Positions 1,907 through 15,023 of a stretch of DNA of 64,000 bases are shown here, piece after piece. The first letter of the stretch is position 1. The number at the start of each line of letters is the position of its first letter. Position numbers and translations under genes: made by a program. The notes beneath the pieces are model-generated. The model had not been told where the DNA came from. It saw nothing but the letters and a program-made list of their open reading frames with translations, and did not search any database. This stretch comes from Rhodotorula mucilaginosa. Lineage: Eukaryota; Basidiomycota; Microbotryomycetes; Sporidiobolales; Sporidiobolaceae. The stretch spans positions 558,001 to 622,000 of the forward strand of contig CP137868.1 of NCBI GenBank assembly GCA_034406715.1, in the 5' to 3' direction.

Positions 1907-2326
1907 CGGCTGTGCACGGCGTTATAACGGCAGTCAAGGTGGGTCTCGACCGAGGAGAGCAGCTCTGGCTCGGCCGAGAGGTTGGCTCGGTCACGTGATC
2001 GAAATCCAACTCCGCGCGGTCCGCCGGCTGACCGTCCTCTCGCTTCCTCCTACACACCCTGCACGGCGACTATCGCCGATTGAAACCCTACGTTTCGCAT
2101 CTCGCTTCCTCCACTCTCGCTCTTTCCGGACCCAAACCCTTCGCAGTAGCGACGACCCGCTTCTCCCTCGCTCCTTCTGACCGGACGTACGCTTGGCACG
2201 ACTCGGAAACTCCGCTGGCCTCTCTACCACAGCAAGTCGATCTTAGTGCACACACGGCGGCGAGATCAACCAAACCATCCGCGCCCACCCCCGCTTCCTC
2301 AAGAAAATACCAAAGTCTGGCGCAGC
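1907..2326. promoter_or_regulatory. Divergent intergenic region, guanine deaminase / acetyltransferase
   Basis: These 420 bp separate two start codons pointing away from each other, so both promoters must lie here. I see no clear TATA box and no other gene. Open frames in the stretch have no recognisable content. Confidence 0.5.
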
Positions 2327-3343
2327 ATGTCCGGTGCGAACGGCAACGTCACTTGGAACGGGATCGACCTCGCCGAGAACCGCAGGCGCATGGTCCGCGG
2401 CGAGCTCTACACCGCCTTCGTTCCCGATCTCACCAAGGAGCGTCGCGCCGCCTCGCAGGCTTGCGCGGCCTACAACCGGTTGGCGACCGAAGTTAGCCGG
2501 CGCGAACAGGTCGAGTTGTTCAAAAAGTGAGCGACCGCGCCGGGACGCAAGGCTCGAGGACGAGAGACGGCGTCGCTCACAATTGCTCTTGGGACAGGAT
2601 CGTGACTTCGACGCCGGATCTCCCGCCAGCGAAAGACGACCCCGACGAGGACGAGGCGCAGTTGACGGCGTTTCCGTGGGCGGAACCGCCGTTCAAGGTC
2701 GACTACTGCGGCAGGATCTCCATCGGCGAGAACTCGTTCTTCAACTTCAATTTCATCGTCCTCAACACTTGCGAAGTCCGGATCGGCTCGCGCTGTCTCT
2801 TTGGCCCAAACGTGTCCCTGTTCGTCTCCCATGGCCGGATCCCTTTTTCTCTCTCTCTCTCTCGTTGCGCACTCATCAACGTGCTGAGCGCTAAATCGGG
2901 CGTGCCTCTTTTCTCACCCCACCTACAGTTTTGCGGGCACGCATCCACTCGACCCTGCAGTCCGGAACGGCACTGCTGGCCCCGAAGGCGGTGGGCCGAT
3001 CACGATCGGGGACGACTGCTGGTTCGGTGGGAACGTGACCGTCTTGCCGAACATCACGGTCGGAAGGGGCGTGACGGTGGGGGCAGGAAGCGTGGTCACC
3101 AAGGTTTGCCCTCTCTTCCCCATACCCCCTTTCCCCCTTCTCAGCAAGTACCCATACCGGTAGCCGGAGCCTCCTCGACCCGATCAGACCTGACTTTTTC
3201 TTGTCTTGCAGTCTGTACCACCTTTCGCCGTCGTAGTCGGCAACCCCGCCCGTATCGTCCGCAAGATCGAATCGGAATGGGCCGACGAGCACTTCGCTGC
3301 CCATCCTGAGGAGCAATGGGAGATGCCGCCCAAGAAGCAGTAG
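2327..3343 (+). CDS. Sugar O-acetyltransferase (maltose/galactoside type), four exons
   Basis: A predicted acetyl-CoA-dependent transferase acting on a sugar hydroxyl; the physiological acceptor in fungi is unknown. Exons 2327-2526, 2598-2819, 2929-3103 and 3212-3343 give an exact 242-residue frame. Residues 10-65 match the N-terminal maltose acetyltransferase cap (ENRRRMVRGELYTA...). The rest is a left-handed beta-helix of hexapeptide repeats, including IGENSFFNFNF, IGSRCLFGPNVSL, ITIGDDCWFGGNVTVLPNITVG and VTVGAGSVVTK. The active-site His is the one in AGTHPLDP, created by joining exons 2 and 3. The C-terminus VVVGNPARIVRKI is standard for the family. The second intron contains a (CT)n run at about 2848-2863. 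Confidence 0.9.
2848..2863. repeat. (CT)n microsatellite inside an intron
   Basis: A short pure CT run within intron 2 of the acetyltransferase gene, probably serving as its polypyrimidine tract or slippage-prone filler. Confidence 0.8.
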
Positions 3344-3575
3344 AACACCCGTACATACGTAGAGATGAAATAGACACTGGAACGTTTCTGTCGACTTAGG
3401 AGATGCAGGGCCGCCCTTGTGAGCAACGCAACACGCTCGTCATTGGGCAGGTTGATCTTACAGACAACATTCTATTAACTGCCTACCAAAAAAGTATTAG
3501 ATCAAGGGCCAAGGACTGCGGGAAGTCGAAAATCGAAAGTATAGCCTCTCAAGTTTGGAGGACGATGCGCGTTGG

Positions 3576-5051
3576 TTAGACGGCACACTTGTTCGGATCG
3601 AGGCGGTACGTCGTCGCGCCCTGCAAAAGAGGAAGCACACCACGCACGGTCAAGATCCTTCACTCTCACGCCTCAACGCTGCGGCAAACTAGAAAAACCG
3701 GCCAGGGGGGGGGACGCACCTTGACGACAGCTTTGACGACGACTTTGGCGCGGGCGAGCGCGAGCAGGCACTCGTTGATGCGGACTTGAGGTACGGTTTG
3801 CGACGGGCCGCCAGAGGCGAGACTGGCGACGAGGTCTTGCACTGCGCGCGCCACGCGGGCGGGGGCGGCATCAGCGAAACCGCCAAGGGAAGGGAGAGAG
3901 AGAGCATCAAAAACACGCTTGAGACTTACTGGTGGTACCGTTTGGCCGTTCTCGCAAGGCCCAGAGAACTTTTTCCGTCTCGGCTCGTCGCTTTTCGCGA
4001 ATGTCGATCGGGAGGAGGGGCAAGATCGGATCGGCAAAAGTCTGCGCGCGTGCATGGAGTCGGCCCCCGTTCACAGAGATATGGGTCACTACCTTTCTGC
4101 AGGCGACGCGCCCGGGCAATGAATAGCAGAAGACGGGCAAGACCACGGGAGAGAGGGGGAAAAACTCACGGCCATCTCTTCTTTTCGTTTCCGGGCGGCG
4201 GCGGCACCACCCCCCGCCGCCATGGCTCCACCGCGTGCGCCCCCTCGTCCACCTGCAGCACCGCGACCACCTCGAATGCCTGCACTGCCGCCCCGGCCCC
4301 GGCCTCCTCGAGTCGCCGGCACTGAATCGTTGAAGCCTTGGTTCGAGACGAAGGAAGCGTCCGCGCCGCCGCCGCCGCCGGAGGACACAAAGGTGTTGTC
4401 CCCCGCACCGTAGCGATTCCGCGCTCCGTCGTCTTCGTCGTCTTCACTACTGCCGACATTGTGCTGCCGCGCGACCTCGACCGAGAGCAAGGCCTTGACT
4501 CGTTCCTCTTCCTCCTTAACAGCGCGCTCATGCTCCCTCTGCCTGCTCAACTCGAAGTTGATCCGGGTCGGAGCCTCGACAAAGTCGACCGTGTAGCCGT
4601 TGGCCCTCAAGCCCAACAACCACGCGGCGAGGGCGTCGTTGAAGCCGTCCAAGCGGGCGTGGACGAGTTCGAGCTGGTCGAGGTTCGAAGTCAAGTCCGA
4701 GACGCTGTCTGCGAGTTCGGCGAGGATCGGCGCGAGGTGAACGAGCGGCGCTTCCTCCCCTCCTTGGTGGTGGTGGTGGTGGTCTCGAGGGATGTGTGAA
4801 TCGACCGCGTCTCCTCCTCCTTCTCCTGGATCTGCTGCTGTCGCGTGACCCCCTCCGGCATGGGATCGCCTTGAAGCGCTATGGGAGAGGGAAAGAGCGC
4901 GCAAGGACGAAGACGAGATGCGGCGGAGGGGCGTCGTCGGTCGTTGCGAGTGCGAGTGCGAGTGGTGCAGCGGGTTGGACGAACTCGATCGCGAGAGGGA
5001 CGAAGCGCGCGAGCGGGACAGCGCGGCGACGGGCGCAGGGTTCGCCGACAT
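3576..5051 (-). CDS. DAM1: DASH complex subunit Dam1 with C-terminal extension, four exons
   Basis: Dam1 is a subunit of the kinetochore DASH ring that couples chromosomes to spindle microtubules. Exons 4170-5051, 3930-4041, 3720-3841 and 3576-3620 give an exact 386-residue frame. A Ser/His-rich N-terminus is followed, at roughly residues 105-160, by the Dam1 signature: LAPILAELADSVSDLTSNL..., then FNDALAAWLLGLRANGYTVDFVEAP. Next come an acidic stretch, a Gly/Arg-rich RGG-like region (about 235-285) and a basic KRKEE patch. The last ~90 residues form a compact segment (REKRRAETEKVLWALRERPNG ... VRINECLLALARAKVVVK ... GATTYRLDP) that looks like a small winged-helix fold. The frame is open upstream of the chosen ATG (5049-5051), but that part reads as leader. 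Convergent with the acetyltransferase gene, divergent from chitin synthase. Confidence 0.9.
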
Positions 5052-5424: not shown

Positions 5425-8400
5425 ATGGCGGGCTATGACCCGTATGCTGGGCACTATGCGCACCTGCCAGGGACAACTCCGCCTCCTCGCCCCGTGCACA
5501 GCCTCGCTCAACCACAGCCCTACGATGACCGCACCGACCCCTTGCTGAGCCAGCAGCCGCAAGATCCCTTTGCGACCCCGTCTTATCAACTCAGGGACGA
5601 ACCCACGTGGCCGAACCCAGCGGCAACCGGAGACCTCGCAGACGGGCCCGCGCAGCACCACCACCATCAAGGCGGGACGTTTGTCGGCGCAGGCACCTCC
5701 TCGTACCCCGGAGGACAATACCATCTCTACGATCAACAGCAAAACAACATGTCGTACGACTATCTGCAGAATCAACAACCCCAACAGCAAGGTCCCGCAG
5801 GAGGAGCAACTTACGACGACGATCAGGCCCCGCTCCTCTTGCACGGACAGGGTCAGCAAGGGGGCCTGGGCTGGTCGACTACTTCCGGTCCTGCGCCGGG
5901 ACAAGCAGACCCAACGTTGCAACTCCCGGGCGGGTTCGATCCGACACAACAAGGACCGTACGGACTGCCGCCGCCACAGCCACAGCCACAGCCAAGTCCC
6001 GGGTTCGGAGGTCCACCTTTCGCCGGATCTGGGTTTGGGGGACAGCAGGGTCCGCAGCAGGGATATGATGACGACGCCGTCGTGAGATATGGTCGGATCC
6101 CGCAGCGGCAACCGCGGCGGTACAAAACCGTCAAGCGTCAGTTCTCTCTCTCTCTTCCCTCCCCTCCATCCTCCCCTCCCCCAGAACTCTCTTTCCCTTC
6201 TGGCATCGAGGCGAGTAGCGCGAGAGTGAGTCTTGACTTACATAATATTTCATCTTCAACACAGGCGTCCAACTGTACCACGGCAATCTCGTCCTCGACT
6301 GCCAGGTCCCGCCGAAACTGCTCGAGCGCTGTCCGCGCAAGGACGACCGCGAGTTTACCCACATGCGCTACACGGCCGCCACCTGCGATGTGCGTCAGGA
6401 ACCAGTTTTCGTCATATGCACCCGTGATCTCGAGTGAAACGCTCCTTCCGTCGTTCACTTTTACTCACGTAAGGCCATCTGATTTACGCACAGCCCGACG
6501 AGTTCCTCAACGAGCAATACGCGCTCCGGCAGATCTTGTACCAGACTCCTCGACGGACAGAACTCTTCATCGTCTTGACCATGTACAACGTGCGTCTGCT
6601 GTTCCTCGTCCCTTCCGTCACAGATTCAGCCGTTCTGGCCCCTGCTCAAACGCATCACCTATGCAGGAAGACGAAGTCTTGTTCTGCCGTACGATGCACG
6701 GTGTCATGAGTGCGTCGGGCCCGTGCAAATCTGCCTCCTCTGGATTGGCTCGGAGATTGTTTTCTTTTACTCTTTCTTCGAGTTTTGCTGACCTAAGCCT
6801 CGACGCACAGAAAACATCCAGCACTTGTGCGAGCGGAATCGGAGCAAGATCTGGGGTGCCGATGGCTGGAAAAAGGGTGAGTTAGCGAGAGCGAGCGTTC
6901 GACCTCGTCGCCGACCGGCACCGCGTCCCCACATGTTTTTCTCGAAACTGACGAAGAAGATCGCAAAACAGTCGTCGTCTGCGTCGTCTCGGACGGGCGC
7001 GCCAAGATCAATGCGCGCACCTTGTCGGTTCTGGCGGCGATGGGCGTGTATCAAGATGGCGTGGCCAAGAACGTCGTCGCCGGCAAACCCGTCACGGCTC
7101 ACATTTACGAGTACACGACTCAGAGTGAGCTTGGCTGTTGCTGCTGCTGCTACTGCTTTTGATGCCCTTGTGCGACCACCGCTTGCTGGGGTGGGAGATA
7201 AGAGCTGACGTCTTGCGATACGGCGCGCCTCACAGTTTCGATCGACCCGGAGCTCAAGTTCAAATCGGCAGAGAGGGGGATCGTGCCCGTGCAGAGTGGG
7301 TCTGGTCTCCTTGATCCCCGGAGGATAGTGAGCTGACCTGCATGTGCGGGCCGTGAACACAGTCATTTTCTGTCTCAAGGTACGTCCGAGATTCCGATCG
7401 TTGCAAGCCTCGGCCTCGTTGTGAACAAACGAGGATCAGACCAGCTGACTCGTTCGTGTCCTCTGGCAAACAGGAGAAGAAGTCGGTCTTTGGATGCTCG
7501 CTCGCTGCAGATAAGGCTCATCGAGAGAAACGTTGAATTGACCTTATTGTCCCCGCCCGCCCTCTCGCAGCGCCAAAAAGATCAACTCGCACCGCTGGTT
7601 CTTCAACGCGTTCGGCCCGATCCTGCAACCCAACGTGTGCATCCTCCTCGACGTCGGCACCCAACCGGGACCGACGAGCCTGTACAAGCTCTGGAAGGTA
7701 TTTGACGTGCGTCCCGGAACCTGTTTGTCGCATTCAGGACATGTGCACACCCTTCGTGTGCTGTGAGCATGTGTGACTGATACTTAGCCTGTGTTCTGTT
7801 GCGCACAGCTCAACTCGAACGTCGGAGGAGCGTGCGGAGAGATCGTCGCCCTCAAGGGCAAATACTTCCGCAACTTGTACGTTTTCCCTGGGTTACTCGT
7901 TTCGCAGCTCCTCAACGTCAGGTATACTGACGAGTCTTTTGAGGGACGTGCAGGATCAACCCGATGTATGTTTGCGCTACGGAGCAGGCTTTTCAGAGCC
8001 CGAGACTGATTTTTTTGACGGATCTTCGCAGTGTCGCCGCCCAGAATTTCGAGTACAAGATGTCCAGTACATGATTCTGCTCCATCCGCGAGAGAGCTTT
8101 CGGATCACGAGACTCACCTCCGACTGCCCGCACGCAGACATCCTCGACAAGCCGCTCGAGTCGGTCTTTGGCTACATCACCGTCTTGCCCGGCGCTTTCT
8201 CTGCCTGTTCGTGCCACGATTTCTTAGCTGGAGCACCCGATGCTTGAAACTGATGCAGCCGCTCTACCAGATCGGTACATCGCCTTGCAGAACAATGCGC
8301 AGGGGGAAGGACCGCTCAAGGAGTACTTCAAGGGCGAGACGCTGCACCACTCGGTCGACGCAGAGTGGGTGTTTCCCTCGAACCCTCTGGGCCGGCAAGC

Positions 8401-10469
8401 TATACCGCATACTGACGACGACCGACTTTGCAGCTTGTGGACCAAGAACATGTACCTCGCCGAGGATCGCATCCTGTGCTGGGAACTGGTCGCCAAGCGC
8501 GGCAGCGCGTGGGTCCTGCACTATCAGCGAAGCGCCTACGCCGTCACGGTGAGCTCCACCCTACCCTAGCTCCACTTTTCCGGTATGGCGAGGCACGTCG
8601 TTTCTCACTGCTGGCCCTTCTCTGTGTCACCGCAGGACGTGCCGGATCGAGTTCCCGACTTGATTGCGCAGCGTCGTCGTTGGCTCAACGGGTCGTTCTT
8701 TGCCGGGATTCACTCGACCTATCACTTTGGTTACATTTATCGGTGCGCCTCATATCTCAGACACGCGGTATCGGTGCCTTCGATGTCCTTCTCGATACTG
8801 ACTTTACACCTGTTGATCGTTGTCGCTTTCCTTGGCGCAGGTCTGACCACTCTTTCATGCGGAAACTGTGGCTCCACGTCGAACTCTTCTATCAGACCTA
8901 CAACATGCTGTACGTGCTCTGTCTTTGTGCTGGTCCGACCTCCCGAGCTGACAGCCTTCCTCATGCAGCTTTGCGTGGTTCTCGCTCGGCAATTGGTGTA
9001 AGCTGTTACTCTCGCTTCAGCATCGTATTGCGCAATTCGACTGACGCCAGTCTCTCGCGTGCAGACATTATCATGTATATCCTCACGACCTCGATGGAAG
9101 ATGCCTCGTTCGGCCTGAAGGGGATCCACTACTTTGTGCGCGATTTTTCTCGGTCGCGATTGGCACCGCCGGAATCCAAACACTCACGCCCCAAAACGCA
9201 ACTCTACAGAACCGCGTCGTGCAGTACTACTACGTGGCCCTCTTGCGTAAGCGTGAAGCAATCATCCGGTCGAGTATCTGAAAAGCTGACTTTGCTTTGC
9301 CGCAGTCTGCTGCTTCATCCTCGCCCTCGGCAATCGTCCGCAAGGCAGTCACGGCTTCTACCTCATCATCATCATCTCTTTCGCCTTGATCATGGTCTAC
9401 ATGCTCGTGAGTGTGCCACGCCAGCGTAGTTTTTCGCAGCTGCTGCAACAGCCTCGCTCTCCTTGTTCTTCCCTCCCTGACACTCGCCGTTTCCCTTCGC
9501 AGGTGGCCGCGGGAGTGATCACGTACTACAGCATCGTGAATGCCAAGGACGCGATCGAGGCGAGTGGAGGAAAGTTCTCCATCAGCGACGTCTTTACCAA
9601 CACGACCTTCCGGTGCGCACAATTTTCTTACGGCCTCGAGCTTTTCTTCTTCTGACGCCTTTTTACACGGGGCAGGAACATCGTCATCTCGCTGCTGTCG
9701 ACTTACGCCCTGTACCTGATTTCGTCGCTCATCTTTTTCGACCCGGCGCACATGATCACGTCCTTTTTCCAATACCTCTTGTTCTCGCCGGCCATGACGA
9801 ACTGCATCATGGTGTACGTCCTTGCCCCATGCCGTTTTCAGAGTGGCTGCGATCGAAGAATAAGCCCTTCTGACGCCTCGGACCCAACCACAGCTACGCT
9901 TTCAGTAACTTGCAGGATGTGACCTGGGGCAACCGACCCGAGGAGAAACCTTCAACCGATCTCGGTATCGCTCCGGTCAAGGGCGACGGTGTCGACGTTG
10001 CTGTGCCCTCGACCGACCAAGACATCAATGCTGCGTACGACGACGCCGTGCACGTACTCGCGAACAAGCCGCCGCCAGAGGTCAAGACCGTCAACCCGGA
10101 AGAAAAAATGAACGACTCTTACCGCGCGATCCGGACCAACGCGAGTCTTTACTTCATCGCAGACATCGGCTCACCATCTCGTGCATCGCTGACATGTTGG
10201 ACTGGCTGCGCAGGTCTTGCTCGCTTGGACGCTCACGAACGGCGGCCTCGTCGCCGGTATTCTGAGCACGAGCGCCGGATCGAGCGTCACCAGCACTCAG
10301 AGCAACGTGTATATGGCTTTCTTGCTGTATTCAGTGGCTGGTGGGTCCGAATTCTCAGTGCGAAGACGCGCCGGCAAAGGTCCTGACGCTTGATCCGCAA
10401 ACAGGTCTCGCCGCGATCCGCTTCCTTGGCTCGACGTTCTACTCGATCGTTTGGGTGTTTGCGCGATAG
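5425..10469 (+). CDS. Chitin synthase, division 1 (class I-III), more than 20 introns
   Basis: A plasma-membrane GT2 enzyme polymerising UDP-GlcNAc into chitin. The N-terminal ~230 residues are disordered and rich in Gln, Pro and Gly. The conserved core begins with [12 protein letters not shown], joined to YKTVKR across the 6136-6264 intron. The division-1 landmarks appear in order: [76 protein letters not shown], the NFEYKMSN-type loop, [12 protein letters not shown] and YLAEDR with the catalytic Asp (about 8453-8470). [12 protein letters not shown] follows at about 8670-8705. Several C-terminal membrane segments come next ([42 protein letters not shown] and others), and the protein ends VWVFAR. 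The gene is cut into very small exons by short introns with CTGAC branch sites. Confidence 0.92.
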
Positions 10470-10817
10470 GCGGCGTCCGTGTCGACCTATCTTTGACGGT
10501 CGCGAGGAGGGTAGGATACCATAAGCCTGTGAATAAAGACACTTTGTACAGGAAGAACTCGCTTTCCGAGCCGGTACTGCTCGCGCCGCGACTGTTCTTG
10601 CGCTCAACCTCTCGAAGATGCACGCCGGCGATGAACAGCAATCACACTGAAAAGCACCACAACAAGCTACCAGTATGTACTCCACTCGCTTTGTCCCTTC
10701 GGGTCAACGCCGACCGGCCGATCCCTTCTCTTCACCCGAAGCTGCCGGCGTGCGGATCAGAATCAGTTGCTGGTACGCAGAGAGTCGCGCACGAGGAAGA
10801 GAGGGCGAGAAAAGAGC
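10470..10817. other. Convergent 3' region between chitin synthase and RGS-LOV gene
   Basis: 348 bp between two convergent stop codons, containing both 3' untranslated regions. AATAAA-like text (gtgaataaag) at about 10528-10537 could be a polyadenylation signal for the plus-strand gene. Nothing else recognised. Confidence 0.45.
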
Positions 10818-13559
10818 TCACATCGCCACAAAGTGCGTGACCTGGTCCTGGGCCGATTTGAGTGGCGTCAAGTGCAGCACGGCGTGCTTGAAGTCTTCAG
10901 TCTTGGACGCCTTGGTCGTCTTTGCGCTGCGTTGAGAGCGACTGACAGTCAGCAGCGATGCGACTTTACCGCGAAACGGAGAGTGAACTCACAGAAGCTT
11001 GTTCATGTTCGTCTGCGGCTTGATGCGCACGAATCCTTTGTACGCGTGCCCTTGCTCCATCGCCGTACCGACGTTGCGCCTCAGTCGGCGCGTCTGCTCC
11101 TTGACTTCTTCGTCCTTGTGCGAGCTCGCAGAACTGGGCAGTGGCGCCTTGAGCAGGTTGACGAGCTCGACGCCGGCGAGCGAAGCGTACGCGGCGCCCG
11201 AGAGTCCTGGTCATGACCCGGTGAGCCTCGCACTTTGTAGGTCAGAACAGCGGAACTCGCGTGCACGTACCGACGAGCCTCGCCAGCTCCGGCGTCGCGT
11301 AGAGAACCTTGTAATCACCGCCGCTGACGAGCGCAACCCGAACGTAGGTATCCGAGGGCGTGAAATCGGCCGTCTGCGAAGAGAAAAATCGTCAACAAGT
11401 TGCGCGAGCTCAGAGATCCCATTCAACGCGATCGCGAACGCACCAGCCCGGGATCGGTCGCGAAACTCGGCGCGATGGAGGCCTTGTCGGCCTCGCTCGA
11501 GTTCTTCCTCTTCCCGTTCGCTCCGTTGCCGATCGAGCCGTCGTCGTCGCCGTTGTCCTTGTTGTGGTTGCGTTTCCAGACCTTGGAGAGACCACGACCG
11601 CGTTGCAACAGTGAAGGACGCGCGCCGAGGCCTGGGCCGGGAACGGGGAGCAAGTCCGAGGGCGTAGAAGCGACGGGTGGCAGGTAAGGATACTCGGGTT
11701 GAGGTGAGACCAGAGCGGCCGTAGACATCGAGGGCGTGCCGTGCGTGACGAAGGCGGAACCGTTGCCACCACCGTGGTTTATCGAGGGCTGAAGGCGGTC
11801 GAGCTGGTCTTGGACCGTCGCCGAGAAGTTCGGCGGAGCCTGGCGAATGCCGGAGCGGCCCACGGGAAGGATCTGCTGCATGGTCTCGGTGGCGTCGGTC
11901 TGACCGCCGAGGATGAAGCGAACTTTGCCGTGCGAATCGCGGAGCGGGTTCAGGCAGATCAAGTTGTAGTACGGCGTGCCGTCGCGGCGGTCTAGCGGGG
12001 CGTGGTCTGAAGGGTCAGAGAACGTCCGGGAAAGAGCGATGCCAAGAGGACGGGCTCACAGTTGAAGACGGTCCAGGTGACGCGTTCGCCGCGCTGCAAG
12101 GCTTCGCGCAAGGGCTTGACCGAGGCGGGCGAAGTTCCGGGACCTTGAAGGAAGCGGCAGTTGCGGCCGACGATTTCTGCAACTGGATACCCCGTGACCA
12201 TAGCGAAGCCAACCGACGCGGCGACGATCGTGTTGTCGTGCAAGCTGGGGTCGGTCAGGCAGAACGACTCGGTCAAGCCGTCCGTGCGCTCGTCGGGGGT
12301 GCCTGCACCTGCAATGATGGACCGGCCCGTCCAGCCGACGCCGACTTGCCACATCCCGAGACGGTCGTTGAGTTTCTTGATCGCCGTCTCTTGGACCCAG
12401 CGCTCGACGATCTGCTCGTCGACTTCGCGTTTGATCGCTTGGAGGGGCTCATTCAAGCCGTGCCCGACGGCGGCGGTGCGGTACAAGACGGCGAGGGTCG
12501 GACCGCGCTGCGAGATGTTGAGCGAGAGCCGGAGCGGCGAGTTGGCGAGGAAATAGCTCGACGAGATGGCCGAAGAGGCGAGGCGCAAGGTCGCCGCCTG
12601 GCTTGAGAAGGCCAAGAGGTCGGTATAGAGACTCAAGAGCAAACTCGCGCGCGGGTCCGGCAACGTCGCTGCGAACGCGCGGAGCGACTCGAACGCTTGC
12701 GGATCGCCGAGGACGGCATCGAGGCGGTCTCCGCTGTTGAGGCGGGCGAGTTCGACTTCGCGCTCGGCGAGGACGTGCCAGTTTGGATACGCGGTCGGAT
12801 CCGCCGACCCTTGCTCGAGTTTCGGGAGGTGGTCGAGCGGCAAGGCGTTCTCGAGCGCGTCTTGGTGCTGCGAGGCAGCGATCGAGAGCGGGTGCGGGTG
12901 CGAGGCGGCGTTGAGCGGGAGGGCGAGCGGATCTCCGAGCACGTCCTGCTTGAAGCGTTTGCTCGAAGACTCGTTCGCCTGAGCTGCCGCTGCGATCAAG
13001 GCGGCCGTCTCCTCCTCCGAGACGTTGAGCTCCTGGCCCGAGATGGCTGGCAGCCCCGAAGGCATGCCCGTCGAAGATTCGGAGATGAGCGACGGCATCG
13101 TGCGCACGCGGGTGAGTTTTCCCGGTCTCCACGGCGGCGGTCCCTCCTGGATGGGGACCGAAGCGGTGCCAGTACCAGAGTGGTAGAAAGAGTACTCTGG
13201 TCCGAGGTCGAGCGCGTCCGCAAAGAGTTGACCGCTCGCGGGCGATCCCGCTTCGCTTGCTGCTTCCGGTTCGTTCAACGTCCCGCCGCCAGGATGCCCG
13301 TCAGCCACACTCCCAGGGACGCCTCGGATCGAGATGCGGCATGCCGGAACGCACTGATAAGAGAGTCTTCATGCATCCGGCGCTGCTTCCGAGGCGATCC
13401 ACGCGGAGGAGCAGCCGGCAACGGCAGCGGCGGTGGAGCGGTCCTCTTGCCTTCGCCTCTGGATTGCGGCGGCTCCGGGCGCGAGCGGGTAGCCGGACTA
13501 GACTCGGACCAGTCCGGATGCTCGGAGTCACCCTCTGTGGGCAGAGAAAAGCGGTACAT
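10818..13559 (-). CDS. RGS-LOV blue-light photoreceptor, six exons
   Basis: Predicted flavin-binding light sensor fused to a regulator-of-G-protein-signalling domain. Exons 13355-13559, 12060-13259, 11444-12006, 11271-11373, 10993-11206 and 10818-10926 sum to an exact 797-residue frame. Residues 1-245 are low-complexity. About 247-365 is helical and RGS-like (RLDAVLGDPQAFESLRAF ... VQETAIKKL). About 401-505 is a LOV domain with the photoadduct motif GRNCRFLQ (Cys436), GYPVAEIVGRN before it, and DGTPYYNLICLNPLRD then FILGGQTD after it. A Ser/Gly linker follows. A second PAS-like segment (YVRVALVSGGDYKVLYATPELARLVGLS) and a conserved-looking tail ending HFVAM close the protein. The architecture matches fungal RGS-LOV proteins such as Botrytis BcLOV4 (family knowledge). 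The first exon is the least certain part: the long second exon has no in-frame ATG, and the 13260-13354 intron was chosen by phase and splice sites. Confidence 0.85.
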
Positions 13560-15023
13560 TTTTCGTCGCGGTGGTGGTGAGATGAGGGGAAAGAAAAGGT
13601 CGGGCGCGCCTTGGCCCTTTCTCTCCGACACAAGCTCGGCCGCGAGCTCTGCACTTCACGGACCCGCTCGGCTATTTTCCATAGCTTAGACGCCTGCAAA
13701 TGGAAAGGTATTCTGCAGTGCGGAAGACTTGCCACCCCGACAAGACTGGGGCGATTGGGCGACATCTCCAAAAGCTAACCGGATTGACCGGAGAAAGACG
13801 AACGCCAGCTAACAAGTTCATGCAGAAGAGAGGAAGCCGATACAAAGAGAATTTTCGAAGAGGACGGGAAGCCCAGGTGGGTCCGACCCTTCGTCAGCGC
13901 GTTAGCGCAGGTGTGCGCCGAACAGATCGATTCGGGAAACGTGGCATCGCCGAACCTGTAGAGGGAGGAGTACCTTTGTAGTGGCTGGTCTCTGCCCCGG
14001 AAGCGCTCAGGTCCGATGCCTGTGGACACGCAAAAGGGCGTGCTAACCGGGGTCACCAAAGCTTGATCCGGGACTTGGTCAATGGCGGCCATGAAACAGC
14101 AAGATTTCTGGAACTGATCCGAAGTGCCCCAGAAAGCTGCAATCTGGAGAATCACTCCACTGCAAGATGGACCTGTAAAACGGCCACATTAGGCCACGAG
14201 AGAGACGCTTGAAACCTTTCCGACAAAACGCAAGCCGCTTTGTGCTCCCCCCCCCCTGCACTTTTTGGCCCATAGCGTTCTCCGGAGGACTCGTCACGGC
14301 CCCAAGCAAGCCTCTCTCCACCATTTGAGCTATCGAGTACGATCCCTGACCAGCAGCGAGCCGAAATGGGAGGCTCATGCAGACGCCCGGGTCTGAGATT
14401 GAGTGGCGGCGCGAACTTGCCACAGTGACCTGCGGCATAACGGACACATCCGGACTTCTTCCCTCCGCCGTTGCACACAGGAGCACAGGAGCCCTGTGTC
14501 ATCCCTTGCCGGGGACCCAATGTACAGTCCAGAAGAAGTCTGATTGGGAGGACCTGCAGAAAAGCCGGGCTTTTCTGCAGGTCCGCCGCGCAGCCGTGAG
14601 CTTGGCTGCCATGCTCGTCGACCGAGCGGAACGGAGGGTTCTCTCTCCTCGGCGGCGGCGGCGGCAAAGGGAAGCGAAAGACGGGCCCGCGTTCGCGGAG
14701 CATAGGGAGCGAACGAGGACGGAGAGAAACCGCCCAGCGTTGAACGGCATGCGCAGAAAGAGTCGGCTTTTTCTGCCGCTGCCGCTGACAAATTGGACCC
14801 GGGAAGAGGTCGACGTTGCGGCAGGTAGAGTCTGGGCAAGGTCTTGTGAAAGAACGGGAGCGAGAGGTCGACTCGGAAAACGACTGAGAGCGAAAAGACG
14901 CGCGTCAACGGGAACGCAGGGGAAGAGTTCTCAGGCGCATAGTGAAGCTGAGAAAGCAAAATGAAGATACAGACAAGCGCATGCCAATAGAAGACTCAGA
15001 CGTGTCTACGCAAGTAGATACGT
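13560..15023. other. Gene-free stretch of about 1.46 kb
   Basis: Open frames on both strands here (for example 14377-14964 plus and 14375-14959 minus) have no family signature and no splice logic. The region includes the promoter of the RGS-LOV gene at its left end. It also has a long palindrome at 14550-14584 and an imperfect hairpin at about 15008-15023, just past the stop of the next gene. I cannot identify a transposable element, although the palindrome would fit a relic of one. Confidence 0.5.
14550..14584. repeat. Near-perfect 35-bp palindrome
   Basis: The 17-nt arm GGACCTGCAGAAAAGCC (14550-14566) is followed by one G and then its exact reverse complement (14568-14584). Flanking bases do not extend the pairing. 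It could form a very stable cruciform or RNA hairpin. There is no T-tract after it, and it lies in gene-free DNA. Confidence 0.9.

Follow-up and report, generated by a model that had tools for sequence, protein, structure and literature searches.

Within a 64,000-nucleotide stretch of Rhodotorula mucilaginosa DNA (positions 558,001 to 622,000 of contig CP137868.1, contig 5 of a 20.35 Mb genome in 19 contigs; hereafter the window, whose numbering is used throughout) lies a minus-strand gene whose predicted product is, judged from its sequence, a genuine RGS-LOV protein. Specifically, an RGS-like helical domain directly precedes a LOV domain, and a linker then leads to a second, C-terminal PAS-like domain. 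The gene and exon limits below come from a homologue-guided model; the basis of each of the other features is given in brackets.

10732..13559, minus strand: whole gene, 7 exons, 794 amino acids (aa), ATG at 13559, stop ending at 10732
13355..13559, minus strand: exon 1, disordered N-terminus, which matches that of R. pacifica P0001
12060..13259, minus strand: exon 2, remaining N-terminus, RGS domain and first part of the LOV domain
11444..11991, minus strand: exon 3, remaining LOV domain and linker; with the acceptor at 11992 the protein reads NYRRDG, like P0001 and P0002
11271..11373, minus strand: exon 4, start of the C-terminal PAS-like domain
10993..11206, minus strand: exon 5, PAS-like domain
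10822..10926, minus strand: exon 6, PAS-like domain
10732..10741, minus strand: exon 7, completing FVAIFG, with the stop codon; VAIFG or VAVFG stands near the end of several relatives
12343..12759, minus strand: RGS-like helical domain, residues 236–374, without the Glu-Asn pair (profile homology, alignment)
11870..12273, minus strand: LOV domain, residues 398–509, split by the intron 12059–11992 (PDB and Pfam matches)
12157..12159, minus strand: codon of Cys436, the predicted flavin-adduct cysteine in GRNCRFLQ (motif position)
11564..11611, minus strand: basic amphipathic patch LLQRGRGLSKVWKRNH, residues 596–611, in the LOV-PAS linker (shuffle tests)
10735..11352, minus strand: C-terminal PAS-like domain, residues 659–794, spliced (orthologue's fold, profile homology)

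The minus-strand frames, Cys436 and the domain order are as described in an initial annotation of this DNA, which also placed the 13559 end of the gene correctly but set the other end at 10818, 86 bases short of the true one. In place of a stop at 10818, the gene continues through a sixth intron (10821–10742) into exon 7, which completes the FVAIFG ending that relatives also have. Likewise, an acceptor for intron 2 at 12007, which put a five-residue insert into the LOV domain, was replaced by the one at 11992, giving the usual NYRRDG. The first splice model (three extra residues overall, five inserted in the LOV domain) was the query for the PDB, early Pfam and orthologue searches; in the final model the splice sites are usual and the frame is open through all seven exons. 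The closest named orthologues are R. pacifica JCM10908_004965 and JCM10908_002599, each 87% identical over residues 228–520. About 230 N-terminal residues are of low confidence in the R. pacifica orthologue's structure model, with a single weak helix at 160–180, in agreement with the long disordered N-terminus originally proposed.

Pfam PAS_9 matches the LOV domain at E 1.8e-14 in the corrected protein, and a PDB sequence search with the first model returned 148 distinct sequences at E <= 1 (best E 1.7e-24), including aureochrome and phototropin LOV domains; the best 60 of these 148 all bear the names of LOV proteins or of fusions with LOV. These matches bear out the assignment of a LOV domain with an intact photoadduct motif, GRNCRFLQ, and the domain is predicted to bind flavin at Cys436. 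In pattern tests, four pocket patterns (NCRFLQ, NY, the Asn of the next strand and GGQ) are found in 15/15 rows of the clade to which the protein belongs, and in 17, 14, 9 and 15 of the 17 rows of the clade of a second RGS-LOV gene on contig C7 (discussed below), the patterns being loose. The Pfam scan of the window protein found neither a GATA zinc finger, as in white collar (WC-1), nor a kinase domain, as in phototropin. Elsewhere in the family, Wallemia, Athelia and rust RGS-LOVs (P0019, P0022, P0124, P0134, P0031 and P0041) have the flavin-pocket Asn of FxN replaced by Cys (FFC, FYC or FHC); the window's clade keeps the Asn.

The RGS-like region is more divergent. A Pfam search at a cut-off as loose as E 10 gives no RGS match, whether with the window protein or with the domain alone. 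The placement of an RGS-like region directly before the LOV domain nonetheless holds through homology to RGS-bearing relatives. A profile of nine Sporidiobolales rows, none with Pfam RGS listed, was compared with one of 11 distant basidiomycete RGS-LOVs, each of which does have a Pfam RGS entry; the two match over 157 columns with E 5.6e-19 and a probability of 99.1, against E 0.72 and 0.82 for unrelated parts. This figure replaces an earlier E of 1.7e-38 that included three Microbotryomycetes near-relatives on the other-basidiomycete side and left out row P0140, in which the motif was not found. The Pfam RGS cut-off of 23.9 bits was passed by 5/10 relatives in one scan, in which Phenoliferia, a member of the same class, scored 28.8 bits, and by 5/10 in another; in a further scan 4/17 relatives had Pfam RGS at E <= 0.1. 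Against the PDB, a 16-row RGS profile found 44 sequences, 40 of them named RGS, GAIP, GRK2, axin, RGS-RhoGEF or CG5036 and four NLRP14, and seven Sporidiobolales rows alone found three weak matches, all RGS10 (E 0.27–0.34). Furthermore, the region is all-helical in the orthologue's predicted model, with a predicted local distance difference test (pLDDT) score of 92–96 at residues 261–370. The fold-search lists for the structure models (the best 50 of 905 Foldseek matches, and VIA) are filled by LOV/PAS chains and contain no RGS row, an absence that carries no information on the RGS region. Among ascomycetes, the other-basidiomycete RGS profile matches a Glu-Asn-bearing subset (2.9e-8, probability 95.2) and, weakly, a Sclerotinia-type subset (4.5e-5, probability 68.8), while the Sporidiobolales profile has no direct match to either (0.019 and 0.0033, respectively). 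One relative, P0132 of Pseudohyphozyma bogoriensis, also carries cyclin and mitofissin domains in its predicted protein, probably through the joining of neighbouring genes in annotation.

The C-terminal domain has no Pfam PAS match listed at E 10, although a PAS fold is predicted for it in the R. pacifica orthologue's model, in agreement with the second PAS-like segment first proposed. Its profile matches other basidiomycete RGS-LOVs at E 2e-23 and one ascomycete subset at 5.4e-8, and the Sclerotinia-like C-terminal domains are joined only through other basidiomycetes (1.3e-6). In the Sclerotinia model this domain has no row of its own in the VIA list, and its strand order was read from the model. 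According to a review, the polybasic linker of BcLOV4 is followed by a C-terminal domain whose function has not been identified (PMC8993538). Since related domains are present in basidiomycete and ascomycete RGS-LOVs alike, the suggestion of the initial annotation that this C-terminus may make for a variant architecture is not supported and was rejected.

Whether the RGS domain could act as a GTPase-activating protein (GAP) can be considered in light of a Glu-Asn pair that RGS4 is reported to need for this activity (PMC10794492); Asn88, Asn128 and Asp163 are given as critical contacts of RGS4 (PMC8252600). In our alignment, both residues of the pair occur in 3/3 canonical rows (one of them locus L001 of this genome), 7/27 ascomycete RGS-LOV rows and 0/51 basidiomycete RGS-LOV rows, these last comprising 16 window-type, 17 C7-type and 18 others. 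The rows were hand-picked from match lists, with P0133 left out for its truncated RGS domain and Leucosporidium P0258 included, and the pair lies between helices 4 and 5, where loop placement is uncertain by one or two residues. The window protein's loop, AATLPDPRASLL, has neither the Glu nor the Asn, and the pair is absent from the Sclerotinia, Drepanopeziza and Pyricularia rows too. Because the pair that RGS4 needs is missing, the RGS domain of the window protein is likely non-catalytic, a lid or a G-alpha binder rather than a GAP. The original description of a G-protein regulator is thereby weakened, although a partner would be available, as four G-alpha loci over the cut-off were found in the genome (C9, two on C8, and C16). 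Seven ascomycete RGS-LOVs (P0148, P0151, P0152, P0277, P0279, P0283 and P0299) retain both residues and could be genuine GAPs under light control.

An unlikely alternative is that the protein is a light-switched GAP after all, its RGS domain speeding G-alpha GTP hydrolysis through contacts other than Glu-Asn and light acting by membrane relocation. The RGS homology and the G-alpha loci would fit such a role, as would MoRgs5 of Magnaporthe oryzae, an ascomycete RGS-PAS/PAC protein reported to interact with the G-alpha MagB (PMC3248559); a Pyricularia relative, P0156, also lacks the pair. However, not only is the pair absent from all 51 basidiomycete rows, but the RGS4 Asp163 position is not Asp in 16/16 window-type rows and the Asn128 position is not Asn in 15/16, which argues against this alternative.

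The linker offers a possible route to the membrane. The patch LLQRGRGLSKVWKRNH has a net charge of +5 and five large hydrophobic residues; its charge-plus-hydrophobic score was equalled in 6/500 shuffles of the linker and its charge-weighted amphipathic score in 0/300. It is suggestive of a membrane-binding element in the window protein. Alternatively, flavin photochemistry might act through the PAS domain, by dimerisation or by the binding of proteins, making the protein a light-gated scaffold with no direct membrane recruitment. The conserved C-terminal PAS-like domain and the uneven conservation of the patch would suit a scaffold, but the strength of the patch in the window protein and the R. 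pacifica orthologues, together with the precedent of BcLOV4 (PMC8993538), leads us to think it rather improbable.

The window gene is not the only one of its kind in this genome. A genome search with the orthologue found, besides the window gene, a match on contig C7 that is also an RGS-LOV-PAS gene (locus L016, G000:C7:1243600-1248600), in which a small exon encoding GYTPNQIIGRNC, with GRNC, precedes a GC-AG intron; the start and end of its model are not fixed. Its homologues occur in many Basidiomycota, among the best 120 of 336 matches. In a tree of 48 RGS-LOV regions, the window gene belongs to a 15-member clade (support 95/100) and the C7 gene to a 12-member one (support 100/100), with long branches among the ascomycetes and Leucosporidium P0258 left out as its GRNCRFLT was missed by the pattern. 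Sporobolomyces, Rhodosporidiobolus and Rhodotorula occur in both clades, and each clade has rows from this genome, R. pacifica JCM10908, R. paludigena, Rhodosporidiobolus lusitaniae JCM8547, R. odoratus JCM11641 and R. poonsookiae JCM10207. A Rhodotorula-only duplication, with all Rhodotorula rows in a single clade, is rejected (p 6.9e-9), while the two paralogue clades are compatible with being sisters (approximately unbiased test, p 0.298). Hence, on the tree, the two paralogues separated anciently and have been kept since before the Sporidiobolales radiation. By identity, the RGS domain of the window copy diverges faster than that of the C7 copy in 4/4 species compared (window versus C7 copy: 37.7 vs 58.2% to R. 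toruloides, 48.7 vs 55.9% to R. paludigena, 40.9 vs 52.6% to R. poonsookiae and 87.1 vs 87.7% to R. pacifica). That the window gene is a decaying duplicate heading for loss, as this lower conservation, slight in R. pacifica, might hint, is scarcely credible given its open seven-exon frame with usual splice sites, a LOV domain more conserved than the RGS domain in 4/4 comparisons, the four pocket patterns kept throughout its clade, and its long retention.

Other observations concern the relatives of the two genes. P0199 of Rhodotorula toruloides, a C7-type RGS-LOV by similarity, is deposited as 'potassium voltage-gated channel Eag-related subfamily H member 8', probably a PAS-driven misannotation, and P0012 of Sporobolomyces koalae (1031 aa) reads by eye as RGS-LOV-PAS-RGS-LOV-PAS-like, either a true tandem fusion or two genes joined in annotation. 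Two more LOV loci in this genome, on C16 and C6, look white-collar-like (L017, ~2498-2767; L018, ~1928-3745); in L018 a stop-containing stretch, probably an intron, lies between the GRNC part and the next coding stretch.

Taken as a whole, we give a probability of roughly 0.55 to the reading that the window gene encodes one of two RGS-LOVs, with flavin at Cys436, blue-light recruitment to anionic membrane through the basic patch, and an RGS domain that serves as a non-catalytic lid or G-alpha binder. Light would form the flavin-Cys436 adduct, loosening the contact between LOV and RGS domains and exposing the linker patch (residues 596–611) to bind acidic lipids, in line with the mechanism that a review gives for BcLOV4. 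A probable role of the PAS domain is to mediate dimers or to hold the linker in the dark. Once the RGS domain is at the membrane, its part may be to bind G-alpha or some other partner, or to sequester it, instead of accelerating GTP hydrolysis.

Several observations weigh against this reading. The Pfam RGS search of the genome, which missed the window gene and its paralogue, found three other loci, and the pair is seen by pattern in only one of them (L001). The MoRgs5–MagB interaction (PMC3248559), the higher cyclic AMP reported for the MoRgs5 mutant (PMC10056346) and the lack of the pair in P0156 mean that a missing pair need not mean a missing G-protein role, although the MoRgs5 paper itself suggests a role that may be independent of G-protein signalling (PMC3248559). 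The RGS assignment was made by sequence homology. Direct comparison of Sporidiobolales with Sclerotinia-type (BcLOV4-like) proteins gives E 0.0033 for the RGS domain and 0.0088 for the C-terminal one, with probabilities <10, the link running only through other basidiomycetes, and this lowers our confidence. Finally, the charge-plus-hydrophobic score stands above shuffles (<=25/500) in only 4/26 rows, P0134 and eight ascomycete rows being left out as the start of their last domain was unrecognised, so that the patch is not supported as a family-wide trait. The charge-weighted score passes (<=15/300) in 15/32 rows (6/15 in the window's clade, 9/17 in the C7 clade), and the patch is not above shuffles in the Sclerotinia relative; a shared membrane mechanism is thus not proven.

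It is tempting to extend the preferred reading, a light-recruited protein with a non-catalytic RGS domain, to all basidiomycete RGS-LOVs. These might form a light-gated pseudo-RGS family in which GAP chemistry was lost and the RGS domain became a photo-released lid and membrane G-alpha trap, with Microbotryomycetes keeping two by ancient duplication and the fast-diverging window copy having its own partner; we offer this speculatively, and it may well be wrong.

With regard to the surroundings of the gene, a plus-strand neighbour at ~5425–10470 has open reading frames whose translations, judged by eye, resemble a chitin synthase; it converges on the RGS-LOV gene, ~260 bases from the latter's 3′ end. 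Upstream of the gene, at 14550–14584, lies an inverted repeat, seen by eye, of GGACCTGCAGAAAAGCC and its complement, with 17-base arms around one base.

RGS-LOV proteins are in use as single-part optogenetic membrane recruiters, and the new sequences are candidate optogenetic parts. Three points appear to be new: the absence of the GAP pair throughout the basidiomycete rows aligned, the old retained pair of paralogues, and the predicted PAS fold of the C-terminal domain, whose nature is left open in the review of these proteins (PMC8993538). That fold is now directly testable, as are two proposals: that most RGS-LOVs are not GAPs, with a possible exception in an ascomycete subset that can be recognised, and that two RGS-LOV receptors are retained together in red yeasts.

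It is informative to set the window protein beside known systems; among the literature matches listed, no paper on RGS-LOV proteins in Rhodotorula was found. With canonical GAP RGS proteins (RGS4, RGS17 and locus L001) it has the RGS-domain homology in common, although it lacks their Glu-Asn pair and a Pfam RGS score and has LOV and PAS domains attached. Its R. pacifica orthologues are both window-type copies, two there against the one found here. MoRgs5, compared by description, is alike in combining an N-terminal RGS with a C-terminal PAS/PAC (PMC3248559); a Pyricularia sp. relative, P0156, is without the pair like the window protein, whereas Gaeumannomyces P0151 and P0152 keep it. BcLOV4 of Botrytis cinerea, compared through descriptions and a modelled Sclerotinia relative whose type of RGS and C-terminal parts is linked to ours via other basidiomycetes only, is alike in its order of RGS, LOV, linker and C-terminal domain (PMC8993538). 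In contrast, the disordered N-terminus of the window protein is longer (~230 versus ~78 residues in the Sclerotinia relative), and the window protein is one of two paralogues.
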